Shown piece by piece: positions 2,794-62,928 of a stretch of 64,000 bases of DNA; position 1 is the first letter of the stretch; the number at the start of each line of letters is the position of its first letter. A program made the translations under genes and the position numbers. The stretch covers positions 124,001 through 188,000 of the forward strand of contig NW_024881981.1 of the NCBI RefSeq assembly GCF_019059575.1, written 5' to 3'. Below the pieces are notes generated by a model that saw only the letters and a list, made by a program, of their open reading frames with translations, was not told the DNA's origin and searched no databases. The stretch comes from Amphibalanus amphitrite (Eukaryota; Arthropoda; Thecostraca; Balanomorpha; Balanidae).

Positions 2794-3720
2794 CCTGCGC
2801 ACCAACGGGGGTCTGCGCAAACTTCGCACCGACGGGGGGGGCGGATGACCGCCCCCCCCCCCCCTGAGATCTCGAGAACGAAGCAAGATAGCGACAAGCG
2901 GTAAACGGCATCGGATACGCACGGTCAAGATCTACAATTTTTACACAGGTCATTTTCAGGTCAGGTCAAAGATGACGTCACAGGGTTCGAAAAAGTCAAC
3001 ATGGCGGCGCTAGATATGGAGAGTTTTTTCTCGAATAACTTTCGAATTAGTCAAGATAGGAACAAACTAAGGGCATCATCGTGATCCTCTCGTCAATCCG
3101 CATCGAATGATATATATGTTGACCTCGAAAGGTCAAGGTCAAAGGTTGACCTCAGGTCACGTGACCTCGAGGTCATCATGTATAACATTCGATGCGTCTT
3201 GACGAGCTGAACACAATGAGACCATCCACGCGTCTGTATCTTGTTCCTGTACGGAGTTATTGGCCAAAAACCTTTGGTGACCTTTGATGACGTCACATGA
3301 CCTCACAGCTGCCCAACAGCAAAACAGACCTCAAGGTAGTGAAGGTTGATCGTATATGAAGTCATGTATGGTATATGGGGCCATTCCGACCCGTTTTAGT
3401 GGTAAAAACAGAGAGTTGATTTTTCCCCCATTGACTTATAATGGGGAGGTCGCGAAATTGACCTGACCTTAGGTCACCGATATCAAAATTCCGAGATAAA
3501 CAAATTATAGCTACTAATGACCTAATAACATCCTACGACTTTCAAAGGCCTCCGACATCTACTGTAGCTCTGGCACGGTGACAAAGTTGCAAAAAAGTGA
3601 CTTGAGGTTGGGTCATTCAAAGTGACCTGGTGACCTGACCTTGAAAGGTAGGAGGTTCAAACTTGCACACCATGTGTAAAATTGATGAGGGAATAGTCGT
3701 ACCAAATTTCGCTGCGCTGT
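2794..3720. mobile_element. AGGTCA-rich TTAA element, right end missing
   Basis: The left TTAA is at 2790-2793. A G-run/C-run hairpin follows at about 2834-2865 with a short CGGATGACCG loop. From 2866 to about 3515 the sequence is nearly identical to 26237-26880, including the central palindrome (about 3100-3210) and the motif TGACTTATAATGG at about 3431. After that the two copies diverge, and no right inverted repeat is found before unrelated sequence near 3720, so this copy is truncated or recombined. Confidence 0.75.
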
Positions 3721-4155
3721 AACATTCTGCCTGTTGGCAAGCTGTGCTCCCCCAGGAACAATTCATGCTAGAGGGTAACCTTAGAATAGAACCAGCTCTC
3801 ATCTAATTAGGCGCCTAGAACCTTTTTAGGAGCATGCTCCTGCAGAGCCTAGCCACCTTTCAGGATATATTTTGATCATCTGTCAGCACAAATATCAATG
3901 AAACAACAAGGCAAGAATGAGATCTGTGCCAGCACCTGTAATAATTTCCAGCTTGAGCTCAGCTATGGCTGCAGAGGGCAAGGCTGCACAGGATATGAGT
4001 CTGTGAGATTGATGTCTTTTAACTTTATTTTATAAATTTAGCTTGAACGTCTGAATGGATGGGTTGACAGCCGTAGCCAACTCTACGCAGAGCAGTTGTG
4101 GTACTCTCATAGCAGATGTTGCCCTTGCTGCATAATCTAACCTGACCTAGCCCTA
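3721..4155. other. Intergenic, nothing recognised
   Basis: No gene, inverted repeat or conserved repeat core was found between the truncated element and the minisatellite. Confidence 0.4.
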
Positions 4156-4894: not shown

Positions 4895-5558
4895 CAGTGC
4901 TGCCAGATGGAGAAGGCTGTAATCCTCCAGATCAGTTACAAAAATCCTCCAGATTCCTCCAAATCCCATTGGCGGATCCAGATAGGCGGTCTTGGACGCT
5001 GCGGGAGGGCATATCTCCGAAAAGGTTTCTCCAAATTCTAAAAACTCATCGGATTTCGATTCCTTTCGCACTGCTGTGTAGTTTAAAAGATGCTTTTTTA
5101 TAATAAAAGTTGTTTAGTTTTCGTTTTATCCTTGAAAAAAAAACGAAAATTTTCTTCGATTTTGGACGCTGCAGGAGGGGGGGGGGAATTTGCGCCAAAT
5201 GTCCCCCTTTGATCCGCCCGTAGTTCGGTACCTTCAAAAACATATGGTACAATCGTACACGAAATAGGAACAAATAGTCACCATGATATTCGTGGATATA
5301 GCTACAGACTGAGACATTCCAGTCTCACGGTGATAAAGGGCAGTGATATATCCTAACGGGTAGGGTGAAGCTGGGCAGGAAAATGTCTTTTGAGTCTTGA
5401 ACGCGTTGTATTTTTCCATGAAATTGAATGTATTAATCGGGTGACAAATCCTCCAGATTTTCCTCCGGAATCAAAAATCCTCCAAACGCGAAATTTGTCC
5501 GCAAATAGAGTTCAAAATCCTCCAGATTTGCGGAAATCCTCCAAATCTGGCAGCACTG
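4895..5558. mobile_element. Non-autonomous hAT element with 8-bp TSD
   Basis: The terminal inverted repeat is CAGTGCTGCCAGAT at the left and ATCTGGCAGCACTG at the right. The flanks are a perfect 8-bp duplication, AATCACAT, at 4887-4894 and 5559-5566, as expected for the hAT superfamily. Inside both ends are several copies of ATCCTCCAGAT / ATCCTCCAAAT in opposite orientations, which look like subterminal transposase-binding repeats. No transposase frame is present. Confidence 0.9.
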
Positions 5559-5566
5559 AATCACAT

Positions 5567-6954
5567 GCTGTGCACGGTATATAGAGAAATGCCGTGAAAG
5601 ATTTCTGAAAAGATTCTTCGTGAAAGATAAATGCCCTTCACAGCATCTAAGAACTACGTTCATTGAAATGACTTATTTTACTAGAAAGTGAAGGGATATT
5701 GGGGCGTATAAATGTTTTTATTTTGATATGGCAGCAATATCCAGTCAAAGCTGAAACTTACCTTAGTTTCACTGCGATGCTCGTTTCCATAAAATTTTCT
5801 TCTTCTTGTTGGTGCTCATGCTTTTGTCACTGTAGTTATTACTATAGTCACGTGGTACAAGGCTAAAACGTTGAATTTGACCTTGTTTTGACAAGATTTT
5901 TGGATGTTATGGTACTGATTATAATAAATAAAATAATATCTGCATATTTCAAATATGAAATATTATTTAATTTGCTTTCATCTCGTTTAAAACTTCCATT
6001 TTATCATGCCCTTACCAAAAACTGAACCACAAAGAGCTCGAAGGTTACCCTTTACCAGCCAGCATCACGCGAGAGGAGCCGTTTAGGATCTCTGAATTTT
6101 GTTGGGCGCCGGCTGAGAGTTGAGTGGCCAGGAAAAATCGGCAGGTGATTAATCAGGCAATAGGTTAATTGCCTAAGACTTTGAAAGGTAAAATTTTGTT
6201 CAACTTCATTATTTTCTGGTGAAATTATACCACTGTTGGAGGCTGAACATCGATTTTCAAAAGCATTAATTTTGTGATATAGGTATTGATGTGCTGATCA
6301 AAAATTGAGTCATTGGGTCATAACATTATGCTCACTGAATTTCTCAGCAAATGGAGCAACATCAAACAGCATTAGTTAGGTATGCTTAGGCTGGAGGGAG
6401 CCAGAGCGTCGTAGGCCTTCTTGTAACTGCAACATGTCGCAAGTTGTGTAGTAAGTCGTTTTTGAAGCGATCATCTGGTAAGAAGTGTTACTTAAGTTGT
6501 AAAGTCTGTTGCAAGTTGCCTGATTTGCAACAACCTACAAATTTCATAGCAGTCTTAAGTTAAGTTGTGTTGCAAGCTGACCCTGCATTGAGGAAGAGGT
6601 CACAGGTCACAGGTTATTTGGGACATGGTCAATGAATTCACATGGTAGGTGTAAAATTGGTCAACCTGGAGATCATGAAATTTTGGTTGCAATCCGTTGA
6701 CGCTAAAGCGAGTTATAGAACTTGAACCATGGGTTGTCCATGAGGTCTCAAACTGTGCCAGTGAGTGTTGAAAATGGTGCATATGTTACATTCACACTTA
6801 TTGGGGTATTCAGGGATACAAAGTAGCCTAACACCCATTCCAGTAACTACTGACAAATCCAAAAAGGCGGTCTTGACACATTGCAAGGGGCGTCCCCCAA
6901 AAGATTTAAAAGATGACCCAATCATCCTAATTCCAAAAATGATGTGTCCCAGAT
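5567..6954. other. Intergenic, nothing recognised
   Basis: This AT-rich sequence has no coding frame I can support and no clear terminal repeats. A fragment near 6597-6660 (AGGTCACAGGTCACAGG, then GGTGTAAAATTGGTCAA) resembles the right-hand part of the AGGTCA-rich elements and may be a relic. Confidence 0.4.
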
Positions 6955-7715
6955 GACCCCTATGACCTCCCATTGAGCTCTGTGATGACCCCAAGTTGAC
7001 CTATGTGACCTGACATGTCCCAGATGACCTTTGTGACCTCTAATTGAGCTGTCTGATGACTCCAAACTGACCTCTGTGACCTGCCATGTCCCAGATGACC
7101 CAATAGAGCTCTGTGATGATCCCAAGTTGACCTCTGTGACCTGGCATGTCCCATATGACCTCTGTGACCTCAAGTGACCTCTCTGATGACCCCCCCCCCC
7201 CCCTATGGGCGCTGATGACCACTGTAGTCCGGGCGCCCAAAAACTCCAATTCATCATCATCATCATCTGACCCCAAGCTGACCTCTGTGAGCTGACATGT
7301 CCCAGATGACCCCCATGACCTCCAATAGAGCTCGGTGATGACCACAAGTTGACTTCTGTGACCTGGGGTGTTCCAGATGACCTCCGTGACCTCCAATTGA
7401 GCTCTCTGATGACTCCAAGCTAACCTCTGTGACCTGATGTGTCCTAGATGACCTCCAATCGAGCTCTGTGATGACCCCAAGTTGACCTCTGTGACCTGAC
7501 GTGTCCCGTAAGACCTCTGTGACCTCTAAGTGACCTCTCTGATGACCCCAAGCTGACCTCTGTGACCTGACGTGTCCCAGTTGACCCACATGACCTCCAA
7601 TAGAGCTGTGATGACCCAAAATTGACCTCTGTGATCTGACATATCCCAGATGACCTCTGTAACCTCCAATTGTGACCTCCAACTGTGACACTCTTACCTC
7701 TGTGACCTCAAACTC
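6955..7715. repeat. TGACCT-based minisatellite
   Basis: Degenerate tandem units contain TGACCTCTGTGACCTGACAT, then TCCCAGATGACC, then GAGCTCTGTGATGACC. Successive GAGCT...TGATGA landmarks are about 71, 62, 70 and 62 bp apart, suggesting a two-unit repeat of about 133 bp. Several minus-strand frames stay open through it and give repetitive peptides (SHRSQLG/WSHQ-like), which I read as by-products of the repeat. A C-run sits at 7190-7203 and a CAT trinucleotide run at 7252-7266. Confidence 0.88.
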
Positions 7716-8385: not shown

Positions 8386-11274
8386 ATGGCCTTGGTTCGC
8401 TCTGCCCTGCGGCTGACCCGCTCGTCGGGTGTCCTGGCTCAATGCTCCCGCTCAATGGCTGACATGCCTCTGACGTTCGCCGCTCCCAGCCAGGTGTTCT
8501 ATAACCAGCAGGACGTCCGCCAGGTGGACGTACCCTCATTCAGGTAAGTGGGACATTATCAGAAAGTTACGATGGTTTGTTGGAATTAATATCCAACTTA
8601 TTTATCCATGTTTTCATCATGTGAGCCTTAACCCGCGCCGGGCCGGTGCTCTGACTTCTGAGATTCCGCGCCGGGCCGGGGGGGGGGGGGGGGTCTGAAC
8701 GGTGAACACCTCCCCCCTCCTTCTAACTCGGCTCCTGGGCCACGTAGCGACACGCGGTAAGCGGCAATCGAAAGAACGTCCAAAATAAGGACGAAAACAC
8801 TTCGGTCATTTTTCGGGTCAGGTCAAAGGTCAGGTCACCAGAGTCCAGAGGTCACCGTAGGTCAAATGTCCACTATTTCAACATTTTGGGAACTGCCAAC
8901 GGCTATCTCGGGAACCGATAGAGCTACAGCGCCGCGGAAAAGCGCATTCGATAGCCCTTTTACAGTCCTTTCTGAGTAATGTTCTTAGATTTGACCTCAG
9001 GTCAACGGTTTAGCCTCCAGGGGGCAAAAACTCCAAAAATAGCCGTTTTTACGAAAAACGTTTTTTCGGCAATAACTTTTGACTCAAAAGAGTCATGACA
9101 TTACTTTTGCCACCATCGTGTTCCTCTCGTCGAGACGCGTCGAATGAACTATAATTTGACCTTGAAAGGTCAACTTAAAAATTTGACCTCAGGTCAAGGT
9201 CATGACCTGACCGGAAAAGGTCATGTTGCATATCAGTCGATCCGCAACGTCGAGCCGAACACATCTAAGGCGTTTTCAGCGCTCTAGCACGTCTCTATCA
9301 GAAGTTATTAGCGAAAAACTGTTAGATTCTGTTCGTGACCTGAGATGACCTCGGGGACATAACGAGGGGTCACAGTTGCCATTTTCCGGTTCAGTGTGTC
9401 CATTTTACCTACATCTCGATGTTTGAGAGTGTCTAGAATAACGTTCGTGCAAAACAGACGCTTTTCAATTTTCTCCCATTGACTTATAATGGAGAGGTCG
9501 CAAAATTGACCTGACCTTAGGTCATCGATATCAAAATTCCGAGATATACATTTTATAGATATTGTTGCTCTTATCAATCGCTCTAAGTTTCAAGGCAATC
9601 GATCAATCGGTGTAGCTATGACGAGCATTCTTATTTTTTCTGAGGTGAGGTCACTTGGCGTGACCTGGTGACCTGACCTAAGGTGACCTGGGTCTGAAAT
9701 TTTCACAACATGTGCGGAAAAGATGCACGAACAGGTGTGCCAAAAACGGCGGCGCGGAGCGCCGCCGTTTTTGAGATATCTGCGAAAAACCGCAGGAGGG
9801 GGTGTTCAAACACCCCCCCCCGGCCCGGCGCGGGTTAAAGGGACCCTCCCAGTCCCACCCTCAAAAAAGTTAATGAATTGGCATGAAAGTGATGTCGCTC
9901 GGTTCAGAAAGAGCAAAACGAATATCCACGAAATTTCATCGAAAAAAATATTCACCGGTTTTCAAGATATTAAGACTTATTTTGTTTACTTTTTGGTATA
10001 TCTGCTGTTCCTAGCGACTTCGTTTTGGAAGTGCGGCGTTTGCGGCAGATGTTACGCGCAAATAGCATAACCACCACTGCTTCACAAAGATGTTAGTATA
10101 AGGTTTTAAAATCGTTAGATCACCGCCGACGTCAATAAATTCTAATTTCTAAGGGGACATTCCAATGCATTAGCCCCTTAGAATCCGAAAACTGCAAGTT
10201 TGAAATTCCATATCTGCGAGTTCAAGCATTTTTCGATGTTGTGAGTGCCCAAACCGGTATTTGCAGGCCATGGCCACCAACTTGGCTATCTCAACTCAAA
10301 ACTAATTTTAAGGTGGGATGGTCACTTTAAAGGAAATAGTTCGACCTTCTACAATCAGGCATTTGTTGTGAATGATGATTGTCTTTTGTACTTTATCATT
10401 TTTGTTACAAATTCTTAAACATCTCTGTTTGCACCCACACCCCAATGAAAGAAACAAAACTAACAACCATATGCAAAGGTTTAAAGTTGAAATATGATAG
10501 CCTTATGATAGCCTCATCAGGAACGAGTGTAGGCTAGACCTAATTCCCACGTATCGCGGCTTGACCCCACCGCGTCTGGTTTGATCGCAGTGTATCGCAG
10601 TCTAACTGCACCGTATTCGGTATGATTACAGCGGTAACTTTGGCATCCTGCCGAACCACGTGCCGGTGCTGGCCGTGCTGCAGCCGGGCGTCGTCAGCGT
10701 GGTCGAGGCCGACGGCAGCACCAACAAGTACTTCGTCAGCAGCGGCTCCGTCACCGTCAACAAGGACTCCACCGTGCAGGTACGCCGACGCGGCGTGGGG
10801 CCCTCTGCCGTCCCTCCTTCAGGTGCTCCAGCTCTCTCAATACCTTCATTCGGCTCTAACTAATGGCACAGTCATCTGTCTCCAGCCCTCCTTGCCAATG
10901 GTGAGATACCAGGACGGAGGACGGGGTCTGATGGACGGGAAACATTTTCCCATCAGTGCTTCGCGAATTTTGTAAACGCCCATTCTGACCGTATGGATGA
11001 GCCGGTAGCACATTTGATAGCCCTGTCCTCCCGCTGTTTTAGTGCGGTGTTTCAGTCGATCCGATGAGGGTGTGTCTGGCACTGACCGATGGCCCGCTGC
11101 GCACAGGTGCTGGCGGAGGAGGCGGTGCCCCTGTCGGACCTGGACGCGGCCGCCTGCAGACAGGCGCTCACCCAGGCGCAGGCGGACCTGGCCAGCGCCA
11201 CCGGCGACCAGGAGCGCGTCGAGGCCCAGATCGCCGTCGAGGTCAGCGAGGCGCTTGTCAAGGCCTGCGAGTGA
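8386..11274 (+). CDS. ATP5F1D: ATP synthase subunit delta, mitochondrial
   Basis: Model: join(8386..8543,10632..10779,11107..11274), 157 residues. This is the F1 central-stalk subunit (bacterial epsilon homologue) that couples rotation of the c-ring to the catalytic head in the mitochondrial inner membrane. The start has an Arg/Ser-rich presequence (MALVRSALRLTRSSG). It is followed by the family blocks PLTFAAPSQVFYN, VRQVDVPSFSGNFGILPNHV, KYFVSSGSVTVN and a C-terminal helical part ending EVSEALVKACE. All three exons join in phase: the AG|C junction makes Ser, and the second junction falls between codons. Donors are GTAAGT and GTACGC, acceptors TTACAG and GCACAG. Length is near the usual 160-170. 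Intron 1 holds two adjacent TTAA elements (8632-9834 and 9839-10326). Alternative-frame readings of the GC-rich third exon are shadows. Confidence 0.96.
8632..9834. mobile_element. TTAA-flanked AGGTCA-rich element, subfamily A
   Basis: The terminal inverted repeat CCCGCGCCGGGCCGG matches CCGGCCCGGCGCGGG at the right end. Both ends abut TTAA (8628-8631 and 9835-9838). This is the target-site pattern of piggyBac-type transposons, whose ends also begin with C's. Inside are G-runs and C-runs near the ends, AGGTCA/TGACCT clusters (including AGGTCAAAGGTCA at about 8820), TGACTTATAATGG at about 9480, and the TCGAATGA / CATATCAGTCGA central inverted arms. It has no protein-coding frame and lies in ATP5F1D intron 1. 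Confidence 0.87.
9839..10326. mobile_element. TTAA-flanked MITE, subfamily E
   Basis: The left end is AGGGACCCTCCCAGTCCCACC and the right end is GGTGGGATGGTCACT, imperfect inverted repeats. The left TTAA (9835-9838) is the same TTAA that ends the preceding element, and the right TTAA is 10327-10330. The interior matches 36728-37194 in inverse orientation. Confidence 0.83.
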
Positions 11275-15779: not shown

Positions 15780-17179
15780 CTACATTATATCGATGTGCTG
15801 TTCGACATTCAGCGCTGCCGTAAAAGCTCTAATTGTGGCCGCCTCCCGGACAGGCGGTGGTAGTGAGTTCCACGCTGAGGCTGCACGGCGAGAGAAACTA
15901 TGCCGCGATGCACTCAAATTACATCTGCACAGGTGCAGGTCACCCCTGTCGGTGGCACGCGTGCATCTCGCCGATACGCTCTCCCGTCGGGTGAACATTT
16001 CCCGGATCGCAGTCGGTGAGTCATCATACGACAGCGCGCTAAACACTTTGACAAGGTCACGACGCTTAACCAGAGTCTCGATCTTTGACCACTTTAGCTG
16101 TTGAAGAGCCGGTGTAATATGCTGATGTTTTTTGAGTCCAATGACGAGTCTCGCTGCAAAATTGATAACTTTTTGAATTCTGTGCAGCTGACCTTTGGCA
16201 GCCGCACCCCACACTGTCAAACAGTAAATGATGTGAGGGAAGACATAAGCCTCGATCAAGATTTTGATGGCATCACTGGAGAAGTAGTGACGAAACTTGC
16301 AAAGCGTTACTAGGAAACGGTTACACTTCTGTGCAACCGCTGTCACATGTGCAGCCCAATTTAGCCTGGCGTCAATAATAACGCCCAGGACTTTGATCTT
16401 TTCCGACGGCCGTACTACTGAGTCACCTATCTGAAAGTAAAAATTTGCTGACTTGGTTAAATTTTGTTTCGTCCCGACCAGCATGAAGTCAGTCTTTCCT
16501 TCGTTCATTTTTAAAGAATTGGCACTAAACCAGGCTTTTAGCTCTTCTAGGGTGGCTTCAAGTCTGCTTTTCATTGCATCGAAGCCAGACTCGTCAGGAA
16601 GTGTACAGTCGAGGTGCATTGTGTCGTCAGCGTAAGTGATCAGGCTGCCGTGAGACAAGTAGCAGGGTAAGTCGCCGGTGAACAATATAAACAGAACAGG
16701 TCCGATAATTGATCCCTGAGGCACACCGCAGGACACCGGCAAACAGCTCCGCCCTCCCCGAACAATCTGTTCTCTGCCGGTCAGGTAACTGCTGAACCAA
16801 TCGATGTCTAAAATGCCGTACCACGACAGTTTTGCAAGTAAGACACCATGGTCGACGCTATCGAACGCCTTCGATAAGTCGACCGTCGTCAACGACGATA
16901 CGAGTCCTCTGTCGGTGTTGTTCACCAGGCGCTCAACAGCAGCGAGCACGGCGTCCTCGGTTGAGTGACGCACCCTATATGCATACTGAGATGGGCTAAA
17001 CAGACGAGCAGAGCTGAGATAACTAGTCAGTTGGCGGCACACTACTTTTTCCAGAATTTTTGATAAGACGCTTAAAAGTGAGATGGGACGATTGTTCGAT
17101 GGGACCGAGACATCGCCAGATTTTGGTATCGGCACGACACACGCTGTTTTCCACGCGTCAGGAAACACTTTGGTAGTCA
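15780..17179 (-). CDS. LINE ORF2, reverse transcriptase half
   Basis: This open frame of about 466 codons encodes a non-LTR reverse transcriptase. Visible motifs in order: CVVPIPKSGD, NNRPISLLSVLSKILEKVV, SQYAYRVRHSTEDAV, DLSKAFDSVDH, GVPQGSIIGPVLF and the catalytic YADD, then a thumb region and a C-terminal tail ending at the stop at 15780. It copies element RNA into DNA at a nicked target. The frame begins directly at the border of the CACTG insertion and has no start of its own; the upstream half is 21689-23195. The two halves join in phase once one copy of the CA duplication is removed, with the family-typical sequence LINLSL/TTKVFPDAW at the junction. There are no stops or frameshifts, so the copy looks young. 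Confidence 0.93.
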
Positions 17180-17594
17180 CACTGAAAAAATTTTTTACTC
17201 AGGCCAGGCATTACTCAGTAATAACTCATGAAGAAACTCAGTGAATACGATAGTGGTGCTCACTTATTGGCTGATCTAACTCACATCACCAGGGTGACTT
17301 CGTTATGCGTGAGTTCTGAGTGCTTAGTTTCGTGAATTCGAACTGAGTCGGAAATGAGTTTTGCTTGGGCAAATCTAGTTTCCTGCGCAATGCATGAGTT
17401 CTCGCGAATTCACGTGCAGTTGTGCGTGAGGTACCCCCGGCTTGAAGATGCGCGCATGCGCGGCAGGGTGAGTTTCCTGCGTGATGCGTGAGTTCGCGTG
17501 ATGAGTATTATAGCCGTTGCGTTCGAAAACCGCGGCGCGCGCTTCAGTCCGTTGCGGTGACTCGCGTAGTTCACGTTGAATTGTTGAGGCTATT

Positions 17595-17877: not shown

Positions 17878-18798
17878 CCCTTGCATGTGTGCGGCGTTTT
17901 CCAGCTTCTAATGTGTAGGGGGGGGGGGGTCGGTTGGATTTAACCGATTTGGTCGGTTAAATTTAACCCTTGCCGTTTGGCCCCTGATCGAGCTAGAGCT
18001 TCGCGGAAAAAAACGAGCGTGTTGCCCGTGACGAGAGGAAGCCGATGATACCCAATTTTAAGGTCCTAGGTCATTGGTTGACCTTCCAGGTCAGGTCAAT
18101 GACCCAAAGTCGGGAAAATCGGGACCTATTAGAAAGTCGTAAAGTGTGGCTGCTAAGGGGTTTTTCGGGGTACTGATCACGAATATCGTGTTAGTTTTGA
18201 TCACAGATGATGTCTTTAAGCATTTAGACCAGGTCGGGTCAGGTCAGGTCAGGTCAATCAGTAGGCGTCGTGACGGGTATTCGTAGTACGTGTCAACCGC
18301 CTCTGACAGCTTCGTAACATGTTACGAAGGCACCAAAACTACTTCGTAAGTGTTCAAATGGTTGTTAAATTCGAATTCAGCTCCAAAAACTAGCCTAGAA
18401 ACATGTAAAACTCGAAAAAGTGAACCGAGGTCACCCGAGGTCACCAAAGGTCAATGACCTGACCTGACCTTCAGGTGACCTTGACACCCACCCTAATGCA
18501 TGGGAGCAACATCAAATCACATGTTTGAACGTTTGAAACCACGAAAAGCTTGCAAACGCGCGGCTAATGCGAGCCGACGTACGCCGAATCGCGATTCCGG
18601 CCAAACATGGTCTCGGAAAAGAGGTCACAGGTCAAAGGTCATTTGGGTCAGGGTCATGAAAGTTTCAGGGTAGGTGTAAAATTGATCAATGCGATGGTAC
18701 TGAAAGTTTCGTCGCGATCAGCCGCTTTTTACGCGAGTTATTCGCGAAAAACCATGGGGAAAGGGGGGTCAATCCGACCCCCCCTACACATGCGAGGG
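17878..18798. mobile_element. TTAA-type AGGTCA-rich element, subfamily D
   Basis: TTAA is at 17874-17877 and TTAG at 18799-18802. Ends are CCCTTGCATGTGTG and the inverse of CCCTCGCATGTGTAGGGG, with a G-run near the left end. It contains tandem AGGTCAGGTCAGGTCAGGTCA at about 18238-18257 and AGGTCAAAGGTCA near 18628. A related copy is at 40178-41016. Confidence 0.77.
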
Positions 18799-19350: not shown

Positions 19351-20402
19351 TTAAGGTGACCATCCGACCTTCACCCGCGCTGTGCTGGGTGGCGTTTTAC
19401 GCCCCCCCCCCCACCCCGCCCCCTCAGGTTTTTCGCGAATATCTAAGAACGGCGGCGCGCAGCGCCACCATTTTCGGCACACCTGCTCATACATTTGTTT
19501 CTGCATATGAAGAAATTTTAGACCCAGGTCGTTCAAGGTCAGGTCACGTCAAATGACTTAACATCGGAAAAATTTCAATGGTCGCTGACGATCGCACCGT
19601 TCGCAACGTGCCATGGAAACCGTTCGATATTTTTGTCATTTTCGCTCAGGGAATTCACCGCTCGATTTCACACCAGTTTGAGGTAAAATGTCAAAAAAAT
19701 ATCGAACGGATTTCATTGTATAGCGTTTTTGATACTGTCCCATCACCATGTCTCAAGTATCAACCTTACGGCATGTATAAAATATGTTTGCTAGTGCAAT
19801 AAAACACCTCATATGTGTTCAGCTTGACGGTTTGGATCGACTGATATGCAACATGACCTGGTCAGGTCAACCTAAGGTCAAGTTTTAAATATGGCCTTTC
19901 AAGGTCTAATTATAGTTCATTCGTCCCGACGAGAAGAACACTATGCTAACGGCAAAATAAATGTCGTGACTCTTGAGTGGAAAGTATTACAGAAAACATT
20001 TTGGTAAAAACGGCTTTTTAGAGTTTTTGCTCTCTGGAGGCTTAATTGTTGACCTGAGGTCAAATCTGAGATCAAACGCCAGCAAGAAAAAAGTCGAAAG
20101 GGCTTTTGACTGCATTTTTCCGCGGGCAGCTCTTTTGGTTCCGAGTTAAGCACCAGTTTTTCGAAAATATTGAAATAAGCAAAATTTGGCCTTTCCTGAC
20201 CTCTGGTGACCTGGCACTTGACTTGACCTTAAAATTACCCAAGTATTTCCTTAAATATCTTTAATGCTTTTTCGAAAGCCGCTTACGGCGTGTCGCTACG
20301 TGGCCCAACCCCAACAGCCGAGTTAGAAGAGGGGACGTGAAGACGACCCCCTCCCCTCAGTACATCACGGTAAACTCAGAGCACCAGCACGGCGCGGTTT
20401 AA
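19351..20402. mobile_element. Subfamily A element inserted in an E-type MITE
   Basis: This is an inverse-orientation relative of 8632-9834. The right end GAGCACCAGCACGGCGCGG is followed by TTAA (20399-20402). The left side is ACCCGCGCTGTGCTGGG, with a C-run, a GCGGCGCGCAGCGCC hairpin and matching internal blocks. The sequences outside it (TTAAGGTGACCATCCGACCTT at the left and CATTAATTTTGAGCTGAGG at the right) together resemble one end of the E-type MITE at 36728, suggesting insertion at that MITE's internal TTAA. Confidence 0.65.
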
Positions 20403-21688
20403 CATTAATTTTGAGCTGAGGTAACTTGATAACTTTTGATATTTCAATCACCTTGCATGCCCTATAACTTCCGTTTCTCTTACTGGCAAAAGAAAATCTG
20501 ATTTTTTATTGTGTTTTCAGGGAACGGCCCATTGAGCCTCCTCTGCATCTTGGCGGAGAAGGCGTCAGTGGTGGCGTACACGGGTGACGAAAATTTGGAT
20601 CACCCCTATCATAACAAGTCTGAAGAAAACGAACGGTGCCGCCTCATCGTGGAGCGAACGGAAGTCTTGTGGGGATCCATGGTTTGGAAGGGAGTCTTTT
20701 GCTGTGGGCGACGGCGCACTTTGTGCTCAGTCAACAAACGGCGCACAAAGTGCGAAACACGCTGTGGTTTGTGTGTATCCATGTGCTCCACACACCATTC
20801 AATGCTGAGCGCCAGCCACCTGTAGGCGCGAAGACTGAGGTCGAGAAGCTGGCAAAAGAGTGAAGCTGAGCTGACGTGGAGTTGATCCCCCCCCCCCCCC
20901 CCGACGCAGTTTGGCGTGTGTCAGAATTGAAATACAGCGCAATGCGACCGTTTCTACAAACATGTATTTCTTGTAAGGGCTGGGGCGAATAGTGCAAGAC
21001 TAGACGTTGGTCGGGCATGGTATAATACAGATATGTATGCTGGTTTTGGGCAATGATTCGTTATATATTGGCCAATCCCAATATATAGACTAGCTGCCTG
21101 GTAGTGGCTGTTGTATGAGCATCATGCATGCATATTGCATAATGCTGATGCGGCAGCTGTTATCATGGGCGGCGAGCCTATACATTGGCTTGAGCCAATA
21201 TAAAACGAATCCGATCAGCCGTTTCAGGCGGCGCCTGAGTAACACCCGAGTATCGTATGAGTTATCGACGTGAGTACGTCCTGAGTACAGCCCTAGTTTT
21301 CACTGAATAACCGATGAGTTCCAACTGAGTTATGGCCGTACTACCACCTGAGTTATACATTAGTACCAGCTGAGTTACATGTGAGTTACTTCCTAGTTTT
21401 TCATGAGTAATGACTTACTAATACCTGAGTTTGGCCTGAGTTGTCTGAGTAGGACATGAGTTACGCATGAGTACTTACTGAGTTTTATCTGAGTTTTACC
21501 ATCGGACAAAATGGCAACTCACTTTGTTACTCACATGCTACTCACTTGCAATGAGTTTTGCCCGAGTTTTACCTGCGTTCCGCCCTGAGTTTTACCTGAG
21601 TACGCGGATTTAGAGTGAGTTTTACCATTGGACAAAATGGCAACTCAGTCATTACTCAGAAAAGTGAGTAAAAATTTTTTTCAGTGCA

Positions 21689-23195
21689 GTGACAGATTGA
21701 TAAGGCGAAGCAAGTGCGGCCCGACTACCGGAAAACTTTGACGGACCGCCGCCAGAGGAATCTCATCGATTCCCACCGCTCGCGACGCACTCATCATCCC
21801 GACACACCGAGACAGTTCCGGTAGAGTTACAGGTGTTAGTTGGAAGCCTGCTGAGCATACTGTCGGCGGTCTGAGGTCATGTCGGCCCGCGCTAACCGCC
21901 TCTTGCAGGTCGGCAGCAATACGGGTTCCGACATCCGCGAAATACCGGTTCAATTCGTCCGCCCTCTCTTCAGGGCCACTGCGACCCGGCCCCGGCGCCA
22001 TGTTCCCCTGCCCGGGGGATGTCATAGAGAATTTTTTAAAGGTCGACCAGAAAGCCACGCGGTCACCCGATGTTAGCCCCCCACACAAAAAATGGCGCCT
22101 AGCTGCGATAAGTCGACTCTTCACTCTATTTCGCAGATTTACAAAGTCATTTTTCGCGTCCGTGGTACGCAACGACAGCCACATGTCACGAGCACTATCC
22201 CGCTCCTCCATCAGCTCGCGAAGCTCCGGATCCTCCAGCCAGGGACAGCTCGGCCGCGAGACACGCACACGTCTCGGTGGGCAGTGGCGATTCAACACGT
22301 CATTCCACACGATCATGAACTGCGTAACACACGAATTTACATCAGTAGCGCCATCTACATGGGACCAATCTGCAAGCAAGAAATCTAGACACACAGCATT
22401 CCAATCGACCTTGCGCCAATTGCGATAGATACGCCATTGTGCCGGTGTTTTCATGCGAGGGAGGTGGACGACAGTCACAATTGGTTGATGATCACTAATG
22501 GAATCGGGCAAAATAGACGTCACTGGCGCCGGATCCTTGAAGTTGGTGATAATGTGGTCCAGTGCAGACGGAGACGGGTCCAGGTGGGTGGGGCCGTCAA
22601 TGAGTTGTGTCAAGTTGAGCTCACTTAAGAGATCTAGGTAGCGGCGGGTAGTTGCCGCAGTAGCATCGAGTACGTTGAAGTTGAGGTCGCCCAGGGCGAA
22701 CAGAGGTCTGCCAGCAGCGGTAGCCTTGCGGAGCTGATTCTCGAGGTGTTCCAAACTGACCGTCACAGCACTGTTTGGCGGGCGGTATATCACGCCCACT
22801 GTGGCTGGTACACCGCCGGGCCAGGTCACCATGGCCCACAGAGACTCGAGAGGACCGCTCGCCGGCATCGACAGGATCTTCGCCGCTATCCCCTTTCGAT
22901 GGATGATAGCGACGCCGCCACCACGCCGCAGCGCTCGGTCCCGTCGCAGTACGTTGTAACCGGGAAACGTTAAAAATTCGGGCATCACATCCGACGTCAG
23001 CCAGGTCTCTGACAGGCATAGAATGTCTAGCTGCTCATTTTGTAGAAGGATCATGACGTCGCTCAGCTTCGGAATGAGAGAGCGCACGTTAAGGTGTCCG
23101 ATTTTGAGTTGACCCCGACTGGTGGGAGGCTGAACAGCGGTCCTTGCCTCCTCGGGGCTTCTAGGGAAAGCGCTATAACACCGAGTAAAACGCAT
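21689..23195 (-). CDS. LINE ORF2, AP-like endonuclease half
   Basis: The frame opens at ATG 23195 and stays open to the insertion border. The N-terminal part is an exonuclease-endonuclease-phosphatase domain with KIGHLNVRSLIPK, CLSETWL, RRDRALRRGGGVAI, VIYRPPN, FALGDLNFN and SDHQPIVTVVHLPR. The Asn, Glu, Asp and His catalytic residues all sit in their expected motifs. It nicks target DNA to prime reverse transcription. A linker with PCPWLEDPEL-like sequence (here SCPWLEDPELRELMEERDS) and GIDEIPLAAV precedes the reverse transcriptase, which continues at 17179. The joined frame is 969 codons including the stop (2,907 bases). Confidence 0.93.
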
Positions 23196-24059
23196 TTTGT
23201 CGAAAATCAGCGATAAGGCGTCAGTTGTCTAAGTACATATGTTGCTATTAGAGGTCACTGGTCATACCAAGTCAGGTCACAGGTCAGGTCACCAAAGGTC
23301 ACCAAGGGTCACCACATGAGCCCAACTTTACTAAGGTTATGTGATGCATGTTTTATGGCCAGTTTTTCATTTCCAACTCAATGGTGCTGGTTATAAGACC
23401 ATCAGGTAGGTACGGTTTAGGTCACTTTCTGGTGGAGGTCAGGTCAAGGTCAGGTCAAAAAAGGTCAAATTTCAAAGTTGATATATTTGCATAAAATAGA
23501 TATCGATTCGATGCAGCTCGTCACGGGGAGTCTAATGGTGGTCTTTGTTTTGCGCTACGAGATCTAAAATTGCTAAAAATCAAATTTGGTATGTAGATAG
23601 AAGGTGGTAGGGACTATCACATATATTCAGGTTTTTCGAAATTCAAAACACTTTTTGGATTTTTTGGCTATTATATTCAAAAAAATATATTTTTTGAATT
23701 TTAGGGTTCAAAATCCAAAAAATTCGAAAAACCGAAATAGCAGTTTTGTAGCCCTTTTGATTCCACACCTTTTATGTCAAAAACATTTTTCTGTATCTCT
23801 AAAGCTGTAGCCCTGACAGCTCTTCCCGCGAAACCTTTTTTGGGTCGAAAATGGCAAAAATGACGTCACTCTGACGTCATTAGCGGCCAACCTATCATAG
23901 CCTTTGGAAAAAGTTTTGGTCACCATGTGCGCTAGCTGCTCCCGGGAGGGTACTGAAAGTTTGGTGACGATCGGCGCAGCGGTTCTCGAGATATATCGAA
24001 AAAACTAAAGGGGGGGCAAAAAAATGCCCCCCCCCCACCCCCACCGCCTGGAAGGTTAA

Positions 24060-24841: not shown

Positions 24842-25885
24842 CCCTCGCCGGACCTATTGGTTTTCTACATACGCGCCGGCCGAGGGGGGGGGGGCGGGTA
24901 CGACCCCCCCCTCGCCGTTTCGCCCCTGGTGGAGCTAGCGCGTCGCGAAAAAACGAGCGTGTGCGCCGTTACGAGACGCAGAGATTGGTACCCGATTTTA
25001 ATGTCCTAGGTCGAATTGGTGACCTCTGAGGTCAGGTCAAGTGCCCCAGGGTACGGTTCAGTTTTTGGTGAATACCTTCGCAAAAAACGGCCGCAGAGCC
25101 GCGATTTTGGCAGCATCGTGTTCGCCTTGCTCAGGCGCGTCGAATGATATACTTTTTGTTCGGGTCAGGTTAACTTAGGGTGTTGACCTCAGGTCAAGAT
25201 CAGGTCAGCACCCCCAGGTCACGAAGTTGGTCGAAAGAGGTCATGTCGCATATCATTCGATTCGGCAGTTCTTCCTGAGTCCATTGGTGGCTTTCTCGAA
25301 TCGCTAGCTCAATTTGATCGGGAGACGAAAAACTATAACAATTTGACGAAAAACTAATATGACCTTGATGACGTCATAAATGACGTCACGCAAGGTCAAC
25401 ATTGCAAAAGTGACGCATCTAACCTTGCAAGGAGTGCATCAAATCACGATTCTGTGTGCTTGAGATAGTTGGAGATCGTTCCCGGCGTCAGAATAGCAGT
25501 TTTCATTTTTCCCCAATGACTTATAATGGTGAGGTCACGAAAATGACCTGACCTCATATGACCTTTAGGAAAAATCCGAGATATACAAGTTGTGAGACTC
25601 ATAATGGATACTAGATTCTGCAAGTTTCATTTCCCTGTGACATCTCCTCTGGCAGTGAGGGCGTTGCGAAGTTGCGACATCTGAAGACCGTGCAGAGGTT
25701 CACTTATGACGTCATAGGTCAGTGACCTGACCCGACCCAAAAATGCGGTTGGTGTCAAAAGATGCGGCTTGGATCAAAGGTCAGTTATGCCAAGTTTCAG
25801 CTCTCTATCGCCAGCGTGTTCGGAGCTATCGCGAAAAAAACCTATGGGGGGGCGGCACCCGCCCCCCCCCCTCGGCCGGCGAGGG
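24842..25885. mobile_element. TTAA-flanked AGGTCA-rich element, subfamily C (copy 1)
   Basis: TTAA is at 24838-24841 and 25886-25889. Ends are CCCTCGCCGG and CCGGCGAGGG, with G-run/C-run pairs just inside each. The central arms TCGAATGATATA and ATATCATTCGA surround AGGTCA clusters. TGACTTATAATGG is present near 25517. It is nearly identical over its full length to 52231-53265. Confidence 0.9.
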
Positions 25886-26173
25886 TTAACGAAGGCCAAG
25901 CGCTGCTTGTTGTAATTATTTGTACATACACACGGGTCCGTTGGTTTCGTTGTAATTTTGAAGAGACGCGGCACCAAGAAAAAGCTTTTTCTCATCATAC
26001 CAATCTTCGAAACTAAAAAGGACTTATTGTCATGAACGAAACAATTCAAGAGCCCCAAGTGAGGAACGAACCGAAACACCCGTTAACTGGCGTTAAGCGT
26101 CCCTTTGAGGAAGGTAGACGGTTCAAGCAGTTTGTTGGAAAGTAGGTATTGAAACATCGAAAAGATCCCTTAA

Positions 26174-27170
26174 CCCTATTCCTGGCGGGCTCCGCCGGGA
26201 CAAGAAACTGGCGGGGGGGGCCGATTCGGCCCCCCCCTGAGATCTCGAGAACGAAGCAAGATAGCGACAAGCGGTAAACGGCATCGGATACGCACGGCCA
26301 AGATCTACAATTTTTACTAAGGTCATTTTCAGGTCAGGTCAAAGATGACGTCACAGGGGTCGAAAAAGTCAAAATGGCGGCACTAGATATGGAGAGAGTT
26401 TTTCTCGAATAACTTTCGAATTAGTCAAGATAGGAACAAACTAAGGGCATCATCGTGATCCTCTCGTCAATCCGCATCGAATGATATATATGTTGACCTC
26501 GAAAGGTCAAGGTCAAAGGTTGACCTCAGGTCACGTGACCTCGAGGTCATCATGTATATCATTCGATGCGTCTTGACGAGCTGAACACAATGAGACCATC
26601 CACGCGTCTGTATCTTGTTCCTGTACGGAGTTATTGGCCAAAAACCTTTGGTGACCTTTGATGACGTCACATGACCTCACAGCTGCCCAACAGCAAAACA
26701 GACCTCAAGGTAGTGAAGATTGATCGTATATGAAGTCATGTATGGTATATGGGGCCATTCCGACCCGTTTTAGTGGTAAAAACAGGGAGTTGATTTTTCC
26801 CCCATTGACTTATAATGGGGAGGTCGCGAAATTGACCTGACCTTAGGTCACCGATATCAAAATTCCGAGATATACAAATTGCACATACTGGTACCCTAAC
26901 TAAACCCTGAAGAGAAGAAATTGATCGGTCAAAAACTCTAGCTCTGGCGTGATTGCAAACTTTTCTGAGGTAGCGTCACCAAACCGCCTCTGGTGACCTG
27001 ACCTGAGGTCAGATCAACTCAAAATTTTCAGACATGTTGCGTAGAAGCCTTTTAGGAAAAGTCAGAAAATTTGAGCTTCCTAGCTCAACGCGTTTGGGAG
27101 ATATAACCAAAAAGCCTCAGGGGGGGGGGGGGGGCTCCTGAGGCCCCCCCCCCCCCCGCCAGGAATAGGC
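26174..27170. mobile_element. TTAA-flanked AGGTCA-rich element, subfamily B
   Basis: TTAA is at 26170-26173 and 27171-27174. The left end CCCTATTCCTGGCGG matches CCGCCAGGAATAGGC at the right except for the last base. Hairpins are GCGGGGGGGGCC...GGCCCCCCC on the left and a 14-G / 15-C pair around CTCCTGAGG on the right. I count about 17 AGGTCA or TGACCT hexamers by eye in 997 bases. The central palindrome spans about 26464-26580. Confidence 0.9.
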
Positions 27171-27174
27171 TTAA

Positions 27175-29642: not shown

Positions 29643-31759
29643 CAGGGGCGTCGCCGACGGGGGGGTCGGGGGGTCGTGACCCCCCCACTCTTGAAAACTG
29701 GGGGTGTCGACCCCCCACTTTTTGCGATGCTGAGTATGCTTTTTTATTTTTATGTCAGTGAAGCAGGCGTCAGCAACACCAACAAATACATCAGATTCAG
29801 AATCGCTTCAAGAGCTCCCTAAAGCTAATTAGCCAATTAGCTAAAGGTCAATTAGCTGTGGGCGGGGAACACCAGCACAGCAATGTTTTTAAGTAGCCCC
29901 GATTCTAGTACCTTTTTATCCCTCAATGGATTGGACGCGCCAAAACTGCCCCGAGGGTTCGTCTGATCGTTAAAAAAAAATGGTCGCAGTCGATTCGTCG
30001 GATCAGTAGGTACCCGTAACTACAAAACTACAAACTAGCCTCTGCCCCAAAGCTACCATCATACCTAGCTGTACAGTGCACATGTAGGGGAAAGGGAGTC
30101 AGATGGAACCGTCTCGGGCTTTCGCAAAGAAGTCGCGCAAAAAGGAGCCGATTGCAACAAAACTTCCGGTGCGCTCGAGTTAATCACCTACTTAAAAATA
30201 AATCGATATCCCTGATTCAAATAAAGATGACCTTAGTTCACTTTTTCATAACATGCTTTTAATTTATAGGGTAGTTTTTGGAGCTGATTTTGAACTTAGC
30301 GCCCATCTGAGCATTTAAGAAATAGTTGTGTTGCTTATAACATGTTAGGAAGCAATCGGTGGTGGTCATCCACTTTTAGGTAGGTACTGGTCGATCTGAC
30401 CTGACCTGATCTACCCCAAATGCATGGAGTCATCATCTTCGTTCAAAACTAAGATAACATTCGTAATCAGAACCTCGAAAAAACATCACAACTTACATTC
30501 GTTAAGTTCTAGCAGGTCCCGAGTTTCTCTACTTATTGGCGATGACCTGAGTCCCGAGATGACCCGAAACCTTGTAAATGGGTATCATCGGCTTTCTCTC
30601 GTCACGGGCAGCATGCTCTTTTTTCCGCAAACCTCTAGACCGATCAGGGGTCGAAAGCATACCTCAGCGTTACTTTAGTATACGTTATACGTTAGCGACT
30701 GGGAAACCACCAATAGAAGGGCTACAGTGAAGCAGAAAACATATTCGATAGCTCTTTTAACGCTCTTTCGCTAGCTTCGCGTTAGATTTCATCTCAGGTC
30801 TATGTTTGGCCCATAAGAAGGCAAACAGCTAACTGGACAGATTCTGCCGAAACATCTGCTTTGCAATAACTTTAGATTCCGTGAATTTGTATGGTATGTA
30901 CATATGTTGTCTTGTCACCACCGTGTTGATCTCTTTGAGACGCGTCACATGAGTTAAAATTTGACCATTCGGCATTCAGAATTAACGTTAAAACGACCTC
31001 AGGTCAACGTTATGTCCTGATCGAAAAAGGACCTCCTGCTGCATATGAATGGATCCGTGTTGTTGAGCTGAACAGTGAACACCTTCCAGGTGCTGTCATC
31101 GCTCTACCGCGTCTTCGTCAAAAGTTGTAGAAAAAAAATGCTGGTGGCCCTCGATGGACATTTCCACAAATGACCTTTCGAGTCATCACTCGCCATAAGT
31201 TGCACCCTGTCCCTGGCAACGATGAGCTGATTTGTCATGGCTCCAAAGATATTTTGCGTTTCTGACGAACTTTTTCAAAGCAGGAGGCATTCGTGCTTTT
31301 TCTAATTTCTCATTATTTTCTAATGATGAGGTCACGTATTTGACCTGCCTTCAGATCATAGATGTAAATCTTCAGTTAGAATCATGGATTGCTGACACGT
31401 ATAACCCCATACATTAGGTATACACTATACAGTGTACCAAATTTCGAAGTTATGGGAGAAAAGCTACAAGAATGGCGAGAGGGGAAAGTTTTAAAGAGGT
31501 ATACCGTATAACTGAACTTGACATGGCGACCTGACCAAGTGACCAGTGATAATTTTTACGCAAGTGATGTAGGTAGGTATACCTACCTAATAGGTTATAC
31601 CAAATTTGGCGGCGCTGCGCGCCGATTTGTTACACGCGCACACACACACATACGCACGCACAAAACTGGGAAGTGTGGCAAAAAAAAAAACATCCCTACC
31701 CATCGGGTGAAGACTAGAAACCCGACCCCCCCACTCAAAAATCCGTGGCGACGCCCCTG
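29643..31759. mobile_element. 2.1 kb non-autonomous hAT element with 8-bp TSD
   Basis: Ends are CAGGGGCGTCGCC and GGCGACGCCCCTG. The flanks are a perfect 8-bp duplication CGTGCCGG at 29635-29642 and 31760-31767. Both the CAGGG terminus and 8-bp duplication are typical of hAT. No transposase is present. The interior (roughly 30230-31560) holds a heavily diverged AGGTCA-type element with recognisable blocks such as GACGCGTC and TAATGATGAGGTCACG. The flanking DNA on both sides is GC-rich and reads continuously once the element is removed. Confidence 0.92.
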
Positions 31760-39828: not shown

Positions 39829-40177
39829 AACCCCAAAGTTTTTTTTTTCTGTGGACATACCTAACATGCAAAAGGCACAGCACAGCTCCCTGTCAAGTCT
39901 CAAGATGGCTCCCTACAAGCTACAAAGGAACACTATGGAACACCTATATTACATACAGATTAAAAAACTGTTATATTTATTCGTAGTTTCGAAAATGACA
40001 GAACTGTCATTTCTGTATGGCTAACAGCGCGGGAATTCTGATCTCGTGAAACTGATTAGTTTTCCTGCTTGGCAGTTGCCAACCGAGAATGAGAGGCAAA
40101 ATGAAATGGAACAAACAATATAAAGAAATTGACTGGTGTTTGGCCCTCGCCCGTATTCGTGTTTTGCCAGCGTTTAA

Positions 40178-41016
40178 CGTATGGGGGGGGGGGGGGGGTC
40201 CGTTGGAATCCCATCGTCGTTTGGCCCCTGGTGGAGCTAGAGCTTCGCGGAAAAAAATGAGCGTGTTGCCCGAGACGCGAGGAAGCCGATGATAACCAAC
40301 TTGGTCATTGGTTAACCTTCCAGGCCAGGTCAATTACCCAGAAGTCGGGAAAATAGGGGGTTATTTGAAGTTCGTAAAGCGAGTTTATTATTTTTTGGCT
40401 GTTGCTGATCGCGAATGTCATGTTAGTTTTGCTCACAGATGTCTTCGTACATTTAGGCCAGGTCAGGTCAGGTCAGGTCAACCAGTAGGTGTCCTGCCGG
40501 CTATCCATAGGGAGTGTCAAGTGTCAGCTACCACTGACGGTGTCGTAACATGTTACGAAGGCACTAAAACTACTTCATAAATGATCAAATGCATGTTAAA
40601 TTCGAAATCGGCCCGAAAAAAACTACCCTAGAAACATGTAAAACTCCAAAAAGTGAACCGAGGTCACCAAAGGTCAATGACCTGACCTGACCTTCAGGTG
40701 ACCTTGACAGTTGACACCCAAAATACTGCGTGGGACCAACATCATTTACATGTTTGGACGTTACAATCACAAAAAGACTGGAAATGCGCGGATAATGTGA
40801 GCCGACTACGCCAAATCGCGATTCCGGCCAAGCATGGTCTCGAGAATCAGGTCACAAGTCAAAAACCATTTGAGTCAGAGTCATGAAATCTTTAGAACAT
40901 GTGTAAAATTGATAAACTCGAGAGGTACTGAAAGTTTCGTCGTGATCGGCCGCTTTTTGCGCGAGTTATGTGCGAAAAGCCGAGGTGGTCCGTTCGCCCG
41001 CCTATAAGTGCGAGGG
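40178..41016. mobile_element. TTAA-type AGGTCA-rich element, subfamily D (copy 2)
   Basis: TTAA is at 40174-40177 and 41017-41020. The right end CCTATAAGTGCGAGGG matches the family; the left end CGTATGGGGG is shortened. Blocks GTTTGGCCCCTGGTGGAGCT, AGGTCAGGTCAGGTCAGGTC and CATGTTACGAAGGCAC are shared with 17878-18798. Confidence 0.78.

Positions 41017-46851: not shown

Positions 46852-62928
<16,077 letters not shown>

Follow-up and report, generated by a model that had tools for sequence, protein, structure and literature searches.

Introduction

The 64,000-nucleotide stretch of Amphibalanus amphitrite DNA analysed here (RefSeq assembly GCF_019059575.1, contig NW_024881981.1, positions 124,001 to 188,000 of the forward strand; hereafter the window) contains a group of short transposons crowded with the hexamer AGGTCA and its complement TGACCT, and raises the question why mobile elements should carry so many copies of the textbook nuclear-receptor half-site. 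An initial annotation made from the sequence alone had listed nine such elements, at about 2.8, 8.6, 17.9, 19.4, 24.8, 26.2, 40.2, 52.2 and 60.6 kb, and had suggested that they could spread receptor-responsive enhancers or use a receptor-like protein for their own mobility. Here we present the abundance, conservation and arrangement of these half-sites, together with a description of the autonomous relatives of the elements and of the candidate binding proteins. The half-sites form a ladder of clusters, or rungs, at steps of about 170 bp inside the ends of piggyBac elements, and this ladder is the internal feature that the elements conserve best. With a probability of roughly 0.45, we read it as a cis-acting binding array that is conserved, advances in nucleosome-length steps and probably serves a host AGGTCA-binding factor.

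Abundance of half-sites in the window and in the genome

AGGTCA/TGACCT is the most frequent hexamer of the 64-kb window, with 250 occurrences (120 AGGTCA and 130 TGACCT). The nine first-listed elements hold 10-24 half-sites each, against a mean of 0.33-0.58 and a maximum of 4 in 300 dinucleotide shuffles per element, so the reported excess over chance holds for all of them, and the estimate of about 17 half-sites for the element at 26174 agrees well with the 18 counted in 26170-27174. When tandem runs are collapsed the enrichment survives, as 4-6 separate clusters in each of the six whole window elements measured. Of the 250 half-sites, sequence homologous to the elements (10.8 kb) accounts for 167 and a tandem array at 6.9-7.9 kb for 31; the remaining 52 lie outside both. 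With the nine elements and the array masked, 70 half-sites are found where 26 are expected (30 shuffles, maximum 37), part of this excess falling in further element remnants.

Exons of nuclear receptors are often paired with equal scores on different contigs, for example C493/C582, C495/C620 and C780/C189. Such pairs suggest that both haplotypes are partly present in the assembly, and genome-wide counts may therefore be inflated. In the genome (807.55 Mb, 2644 contigs) AGGTCA reaches a total of 1.94 million (972,618 + 970,466), 5.1 times the reversed control (189,579 + 188,561). The tandem AGGTCAGGTCAGGTCA, correctly noted in the initial annotation (positions 18241 and 40460), occurs 36,932 times genome-wide against 185 for the control. 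AGGTCA ranks third among hexamers in 86.8 kb of flanks from 29 copies of one family (217 occurrences; eight permuted controls 33-63) and takes rank 67 in 95 kb around receptor exons (101 occurrences; the same eight controls 35-64).

The 8-mer TGACGTCA, which we take to be the CRE/ATF consensus, is found 207,243 times against 17,092 for its reversed control (12-fold). Sites in the window lie at 26346, 26662, 25369, 25381 and 25707; in the listed C1 places, pairs are often 316-350 bp apart, about two ladder steps. It is present in 6 of 18 families (16 non-redundant loci plus the non-coding regions of the transposase loci C33 and C44), a spread that shuffles match for some 8-mer.

Conservation of half-sites

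Elements were aligned in pairs, with identity calculated on the spacers only and with hexamers of the same composition without CpG as controls; the pairs overlap, and the counts are not independent. At 60-70% spacer identity 1020 of 1511 half-sites (68%) are intact versus 1024 of 4103 permuted hexamers (25%); the corresponding values are 342/465 versus 464/1490 at 70-80%, 324/417 versus 736/1477 at 80-90% and 610/638 versus 1916/2254 above 90%. Because aligners may be drawn to a repeated motif, the test was rerun with half-sites masked during alignment, which gave 92/137 versus 182/691 (70-80%), 294/391 versus 356/876 (80-90%) and 578/608 versus 1034/1291 (>90%). Because the loci had been picked for their half-sites, it was also rerun on stretches found by masked spacer similarity alone, a selection that removes the picking bias for the constraint test only; here 43/73 versus 45/266 (70-80%), 72/100 versus 84/242 (80-90%) and 140/142 versus 250/306 (>90%) were intact, and 33/51 versus 23/105 in the 15 spacer-found alignments whose subject has fewer than four half-sites. 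Among 30 young copies no substitution was seen at 105 half-site positions, where 6.7 are expected, and 44 at 690 other non-CpG positions; as these copies are the best-scoring of 1699 candidates, this result is supporting only. Judged from the alignments, the half-sites are under constraint: they change more slowly than words of the same composition in all three alignment tests, and the neutral alternative named in the initial annotation, half-sites mutating as fast as other positions, does not apply.

Arrangement of half-sites

Half-sites less than 45 bp apart were taken as one cluster. In eight arrays 28 of 30 successive gaps between clusters measure 142-207 bp, the others 58 and 380, with a median of 170; a preferred spacing, the lack of which the initial annotation had named as evidence against its reading, thus exists at the level of clusters. 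The best period is 172 bp with a power of 3.41, reached by none of 2000 random placements (maximum 2.46) that kept numbers, spans and a 55-bp minimum distance over the full period grid; since the eight arrays are related by descent, they are not eight independent tests of this period. A rung consists of 1-7 half-sites, and the ladder extends up to 0.6-1.1 kb into the non-coding sequence inside the ends. The tips are in phase with it, the first rung being placed about 150-210 bp from the tip, and the outermost 130 bp or so of the 16 ends contain a single half-site, at 105 in E24.8_R. Half-sites point inward rather than outward at 44:11 in rung 1, 46:16 in rung 2 and 16:8 in rung 3 of the 16 related ends, the tips of four of which (in the 24.8- and 17.9-kb elements) were placed without the 2-4 bp correction.

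Genome-wide, in counts that are made up of same-family copies from a genome possibly present in part as two haplotypes, same-strand pairs of AGGTCAGGTCA number 77,695 at start-to-start lags of 151-181 versus 56 for the reversed control, and 7,591 versus 6 at 316-346. At lags of 231-261 there are 839 versus 22 pairs, and at 71-101 there are 1,971 versus 101, many of the listed places being tandem arrays.

Finer spacing was examined in non-redundant loci, for which 47 clusters were reduced to 32 by removal of the 6.9-kb array and of clusters with fewer than six sites, and to 17 by removal of similar copies; 13 of these were used for spacer homology and 16 for gap counts, 5' extension and GC. Adjacent direct repeats in the 16 loci have gaps of -1 (overlap, period 5) in 35 cases, 0 in 12, 1 in 8, 2 in 4, 3 in none, 4 in 16 and 5 in 5, and three pairs are inverted repeats with a gap of 1 (IR1). 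The direct repeats with a gap of 4 (DR4, 16 pairs) are frequent but fit a 10-bp step as well. The pairs with a gap of 1 (DR1) described in the initial annotation are present at 8820/8827 and 18629/18636. An extended monomer site TCAAGGTCA claimed near 26511 can be read at 26507, but belongs to an AGGTCA-AGGTCA pair at 26504/26510.

Classification of the elements and their autonomous relatives

By their ends and their relatives, the elements are non-autonomous piggyBac transposons, or miniature inverted-repeat transposable elements (MITEs), and autonomous elements of the Trichoplusia ni (T. ni) piggyBac type, which bears out their earlier designation as transposons. The 26.2-kb element (26174-27170, forward strand) is a TTAA-flanked MITE with the terminal inverted repeat (TIR) CCCTATTCCTGGCGGG and the right tip GCCTATTCC; its 18 half-sites are arranged in five rungs, accompanied by two copies of TGACGTCA, and a central imperfect palindrome CGAATGATAT ... 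ATATCATTCG (26450-26593) is dense with half-sites. A first look at the genome yielded 1699 candidates, the best 40 of which were scored and are 98-100% identical. TTAA duplications flank 29 of 30 fetched copies, the exception (L014) having TTAT on both sides, and the tip CCCTATTCCTGGCGGG is found at one or both ends of each. Copies of this MITE are nested at TTAA inside other half-site elements in L015, L028 and C702 (4332-5326), which gives a relative age order.

Other families have different tips and the same layout of TTAA, an inverted repeat starting with CC, a G-run/C-run palindrome (13 of 16 ends by pattern search) and then half-site clusters. The terminal motif CC[C/T]T given for piggyBac in PMC2872659 is present in 10 of 16 ends (nine CCCT, one CCTT), while five ends have CCCG and one GCCT. 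Tips of different elements have an identity of 0.55 across 14 nt and of 0.44 when nt 5-14 are taken alone. In five of the 16 ends the tip recurs further inward with at least 11 of 12 matches, at +27 in C33_3, C44_3, C702_3 and F2_L and at +33 in E8.6_L; the other 11 ends reach at most 8 of 12 matches.

A search with PF13843 (DDE_Tnp_1_7) gave 116 matches, all above the cut-off, from 116 scored of 232 candidates. The non-coding regions of the transposase loci C33, C44 and C702 align with MITEs, and half-sites are found in the non-coding ends of these loci and of C1173, a sister copy of C44. In the joined stretch C33 is bounded by TTAA at 397 and at 5116-5119, a length of 4.7 kb, and contains an intact open reading frame (ORF) of 645 amino acids; the ORF holds a single half-site, and the parts of the element before and after it hold 16 each. 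The corresponding upstream, ORF and downstream counts are 9, 0 and 3 for C44 and 11, 1 and 18 for C702, whose 5' end was not located and whose downstream count runs to the right tip and leaves out 18 half-sites of the nested MITE. In every autonomous relative that was joined, the longest ORF encodes a piggyBac transposase (the other ORFs there are unannotated), and there is no sign in these elements of the receptor-like mobility protein that the initial annotation had considered.

The 8.6-kb MITE (8632-9834, forward strand; TTAA-flanked, TIR CCCGCGCCGGGCCGG, 24 half-sites in six rungs) aligns with both ends of C33, its positions 86-776 with C33 5056-4379 at 67% and 479-1211 with C33 1136-397 at 61%, and is therefore a C33-like element with the gene deleted. 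On these alignments, at least one MITE descends by internal deletion from an autonomous piggyBac. The module 479-776 matches both C33 ends in opposite orientation, likely the reason for the central palindrome of the MITEs. C257 matches C33 at 99.9% identity both in the 5' sequence (1.4 kb) and in the 3' sequence (1.6 kb). C431 reaches 99.9% identity to C33 over 1.6 kb of the 5' side; upstream of its position 539, C257 departs from both C33 and C431.

The closest solved structure to the C33 transposase is T. ni piggyBac (6X67, E value 1.2e-56, against 4.6e-21 for piggyBat, 9C0F), in a comparison run for C33 alone of the three loci; the alignment covers 6X67 residues 98-593, including the C-terminal zinc domain. 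The ladder-free transposases L069, L070 and L071 are closer to piggyBat. After the stop codon of the T. ni-type L082, L083, L085 and L090 there are 3, 3, 5 and 7 half-sites in 615-700 bp (18 in 2.6 kb), versus 0 or 1 in each of the other 16 of 20 piggyBac 3' regions (7 in 9.7 kb, near chance). T. ni type was assigned by the zinc pattern, L082 being grouped with its sister L083 since its frame is broken there; the 16 others were typed piggyBat-like by pattern (11) or by eye (3) or are truncated (2), and include near-identical copies representing about nine kinds. For regions in which the tip was not identified, the count covered 700 bp downstream of the stop codon or as much of it as was available. 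As the T. ni-type elements probably belong to a single lineage, the association between ladder and lineage is not replicated. One of the ladder-free elements, L069 (963-3643, C103), is a piggyBat-type piggyBac with an open 595-amino-acid ORF and only two half-sites inside; eleven PF13843 matches of 258.2-258.7 bits suggest that the L069 type is a young family.

Proposed role of the ladder

We suggest that the transposon itself depends on the ladder as a cis-acting array, which a sequence-specific protein would occupy about once per nucleosome length, keeping the ends accessible and/or aiding expression of the transposase gene. The least certain step is the identity of the binder, most likely a host AGGTCA-binding protein of the nuclear-receptor type; a host protein is favored because lineages with diverged transposase-recognised tips have retained one and the same hexamer, and a host factor appears somewhat more likely than the transposase. 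Binding by nuclear receptors is plausible, AGGTCA conforming, as first annotated, to the half-site consensus RGKTCA (PMC1785376), with the tolerance for G at position 1 reflected in an enrichment of GGGTCA (30 versus 4.6 expected in the 16 loci). The genome encodes FTZ-F1/NR5A-like and RXR/USP-like domains. Further receptor domains are presumably HR3-, HR38-, HR39- and HR78-like. The inward-pointing layout at both ends fits a role in mobility at least as well as one as an exported enhancer. In its boldest form, which we regard as unlikely, the proposal would have a piggyBac lineage capture the host nuclear-receptor code, with one receptor-bound rung per nucleosome from each tip positioning the chromatin so as to expose the ends for transposition, and about 1.5 million extra half-sites flooding the genome, so that host receptors face a transposon-made background. 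A receptor gene captured by the transposons was also considered and is not supported: the 77 exon-level zf-C4 matches (from 121 candidates), many of them apparent haplotype pairs, do not look like a repeat family.

Several observations weigh against a receptor-bound, nucleosome-spaced array. In the 16 loci the tolerance at position 3 of RGKTCA is not seen (AGTTCA 3 versus 6.6 expected), and isolated half-sites have no clear receptor-type 5' extension (at most 0.28 bits, at -2; TCA precedes AGGTCA in 6 of 81). Nor is there a preference for DR1-DR5 or IR1 in these loci: overlapping period-5 repeats and 10-bp steps prevail and DR1 is minor, so that the known response-element spacings of the initial annotation do not describe the arrangement. 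A receptor would leave unexplained TGACGTCA, which is not a receptor site and is even more enriched genome-wide than AGGTCA. Ladders track one transposase lineage, inward polarity is also expected of a transposase array, and in rung 4 the polarity is reversed (inward:outward 1:5). GC phasing around rungs is not significant (34 spacers, 16 loci, p = 0.074), so that nucleosome positioning is deduced from the period alone. Finally, common descent links the ends and the families, and most loci were chosen for half-site clusters; the counts are thus not independent, and motif sharing is partly built in.

The half-sites could instead be internal sites of the piggyBac transposase, recognised by its C-terminal zinc domain or another DNA-binding part, with the ladder recruiting transposase and promoting end pairing; we consider this possible, although on the doubtful side. 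Such an array would account for a motif repeated with inward polarity in non-coding DNA on both sides of the gene, with 0-1 half-sites in the coding sequence, and for the contrast between the four T. ni-type 3' regions and the other 16. A profile of the zinc domains of the ladder-bearing C33, C1173 and C702 has as its best PDB match the cysteine-rich domain (CRD) of T. ni piggyBac (5LME), a weak hit (E value 0.0053; next hit 0.054) limited to the C-terminal half of the domain, and the C33 zinc domain alone did not find 5LME. The T. ni CRD sites TGACGCATG and TGACGTACG (PMC7351741) have TGAC in common with TGACCT, TGACGTCA is enriched too, and the left end of piggyBat holds three transposase sites (PMC11707139). 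On the other hand, the zinc domains of C33 and C1173 are 43% identical and the tips strongly different, yet both lineages have the same hexamer, and the roughly 130 bp next to the 16 tips are almost free of half-sites. By position, it is the G-run/C-run palindrome (about nt 14-40 or 40-67) and not the half-sites that corresponds to the CRD palindrome, which weakens the simple equation of half-sites with the T. ni CRD site.

It is improbable that the ladder is mainly a receptor- or hormone-timed promoter or enhancer of the transposase gene, retained in MITEs as inherited baggage. The ORF is indeed flanked by half-sites, AGGTCA and TGACGTCA jointly resemble regulatory motifs, and differences between MITE families may largely reflect differences between their parents; against this stand the equal load on the 5' and 3' sides of C33, the polarity of sites relative to the element ends and the full ladder kept by the gene-less 26.2-kb MITE, a young family of about 99% identity. 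A passive origin, in which the step of about 170 bp echoes tandem duplication of a motif-containing unit that is functionless now, appears very improbable, being disfavored already by the constraint tests, in which half-sites are conserved far beyond words of the same composition. The C33-type 5' region does contain identical 188-bp tandem repeats, and C44/C1173 repeats of about 187 bp, and a step set once could be inherited by families of shared ancestry. However, the strongest direct-orientation match between adjacent spacers within the 13 loci reaches only E 0.001, and spacers are homologous between elements (35 matches below 1e-3; shuffled spacers none).

If a host factor binds the ladder, as we propose, the elements offer a direct case of a cut-and-paste transposon exploiting chromatin and host receptors for mobility, and a genome whose receptor-motif landscape is transposon-dominated. 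If the transposase binds it, a new end architecture is added to piggyBac, a widely used genome-engineering tool. With either binder, the regular step opens the relation of transposon structure to nucleosome arrays to standard assays.

Other features of the window

Besides the two MITEs described above, a TTAA-flanked piggyBac MITE is located at 24842-25885 (forward strand; TIR CCCTCGCCGG, 17 half-sites, three TGACGTCA). A MITE about 94% identical to it is found at 52231-53265 (forward; 21 half-sites, three TGACGTCA) and one about 80% identical, in opposite orientation, at 60596-61612 (reverse; 11 half-sites), both with approximate ends. The piggyBac MITE at 17878-18798 (forward) has the TIR CCCTTGCATGTG / CCCTCGCATGTG, TTAA on the left and TTAG on the right, and 17 half-sites in four rungs; its relative at 40139-41016 (forward, about 79% identical, 12 half-sites) has TTAA at the right end and an approximate left end. 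A relative of the 26.2-kb family at 2794-3775 (forward; 19 half-sites, two TGACGTCA) is about 98% identical over 651 bp, with a diverged right third and an approximate right end, and a diverged relative of the 8.6-kb element occupies 19352-20407 in opposite orientation (reverse; 10 half-sites, ends approximate).

Two stretches were not in the initial list, a partial element at 23252-24042 (forward; ends not located) with 11 half-sites at 23252-23462 and a degraded element of the same group at 30108-31140 with 6 half-sites; beyond these, shorter hits related to the elements occur elsewhere in the window. The partial element is related to a second MITE family, copies of which in L004, L005 and L008 start with TTAACCCGCGCGGGGCTGGGG. 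Its array adjoins an endonuclease ORF of a non-LTR (long terminal repeat) retrotransposon, and the 5' end of a long interspersed nuclear element was rejected as its carrier, the array being related to the second TTAA MITE family. Several MITE families have retained the phrase CCCCATTGACTTATAATGG beside a rung (at 3426, 9474, 25511, 26800 and 52887 and at L095 1651), as has the autonomous C33 element.

The tandem array of the 6.9-7.9 kb region, with a unit of about 71 bp rich in TGACCTC at 6945-7672 and long open frames on the minus strand, shows, at the thresholds applied, no homology to the piggyBac elements. Non-LTR retrotransposon fragments with RVT_1 reverse transcriptase and Exo_endo_phos endonuclease frames lie at 15783-17198 and 21684-23228 (both reverse strand). 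The start of a cation-transporting P-type ATPase gene (Cation_ATPase_N), which we take to be SPCA-like, is located at 62692-63258 (reverse strand). No RNA families or tRNAs were reported in the window.

Comparison with known systems

Text searches of the open-licence literature, surveyed mostly at listing level, turned up no piggyBac ends in which AGGTCA clusters form a ladder with nucleosome-length steps; internal conservation above that of the tips is already known from coral piggyBac MITEs (PMC2872659) and receptor-site-loaded repeats from Alu (PMC1785376), to judge from the available parts of these reports.

T. ni piggyBac, as far as described in the available part of PMC7351741, shares with the elements the TTAA target, inverted repeats starting with CCC, a palindrome just inside the tip and an alignable transposase. 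Its right-end bp 34-63 resemble left-end bp 7-35, giving a second tip copy about 27 bp inside one end, as in the five ends at +27 to +33 here. That part of the report describes one CRD-binding palindrome per end and no ladder of a repeated hexamer. The coral CMITE elements (PMC2872659) are likewise piggyBac-type, TTAA-flanked MITEs, in which the TIRs vary more between families than the internal region does. One family is apparently derived from a piggyBac-like element, and the CMITE core has CCCCATTGAC in common with the elements here; the coral elements differ in their length of about 100 bp and single conserved 75-bp core, and the available text reports no periodic AGGTCA clusters. The primate Alu-DR2 retinoic-acid response elements (PMC1785376) are also a repeat family spreading receptor repeats, with about 100,000 consensus direct repeats in Alu according to the portion available, but Alu is a retroelement, its repeats are mainly of the DR2 type (direct repeats with a gap of 2) and arose largely by CpG deamination. 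The elements described here differ in having many half-sites per copy, no DR2 preference and a ladder layout that is kept between transposon lineages.

Subterminal arrays of transposase sites are found in other DNA transposons such as Ac, CACTA and Hermes. The array in piggyBat (PMC11707139), in the part of that report available, likewise consists of a short motif repeated inside the ends. From all four of these arrays the present ladder differs in its nucleosome-length step, in its reach of up to 0.6-1.1 kb and in a motif that is a host transcription-factor consensus shared across lineages with different tips.

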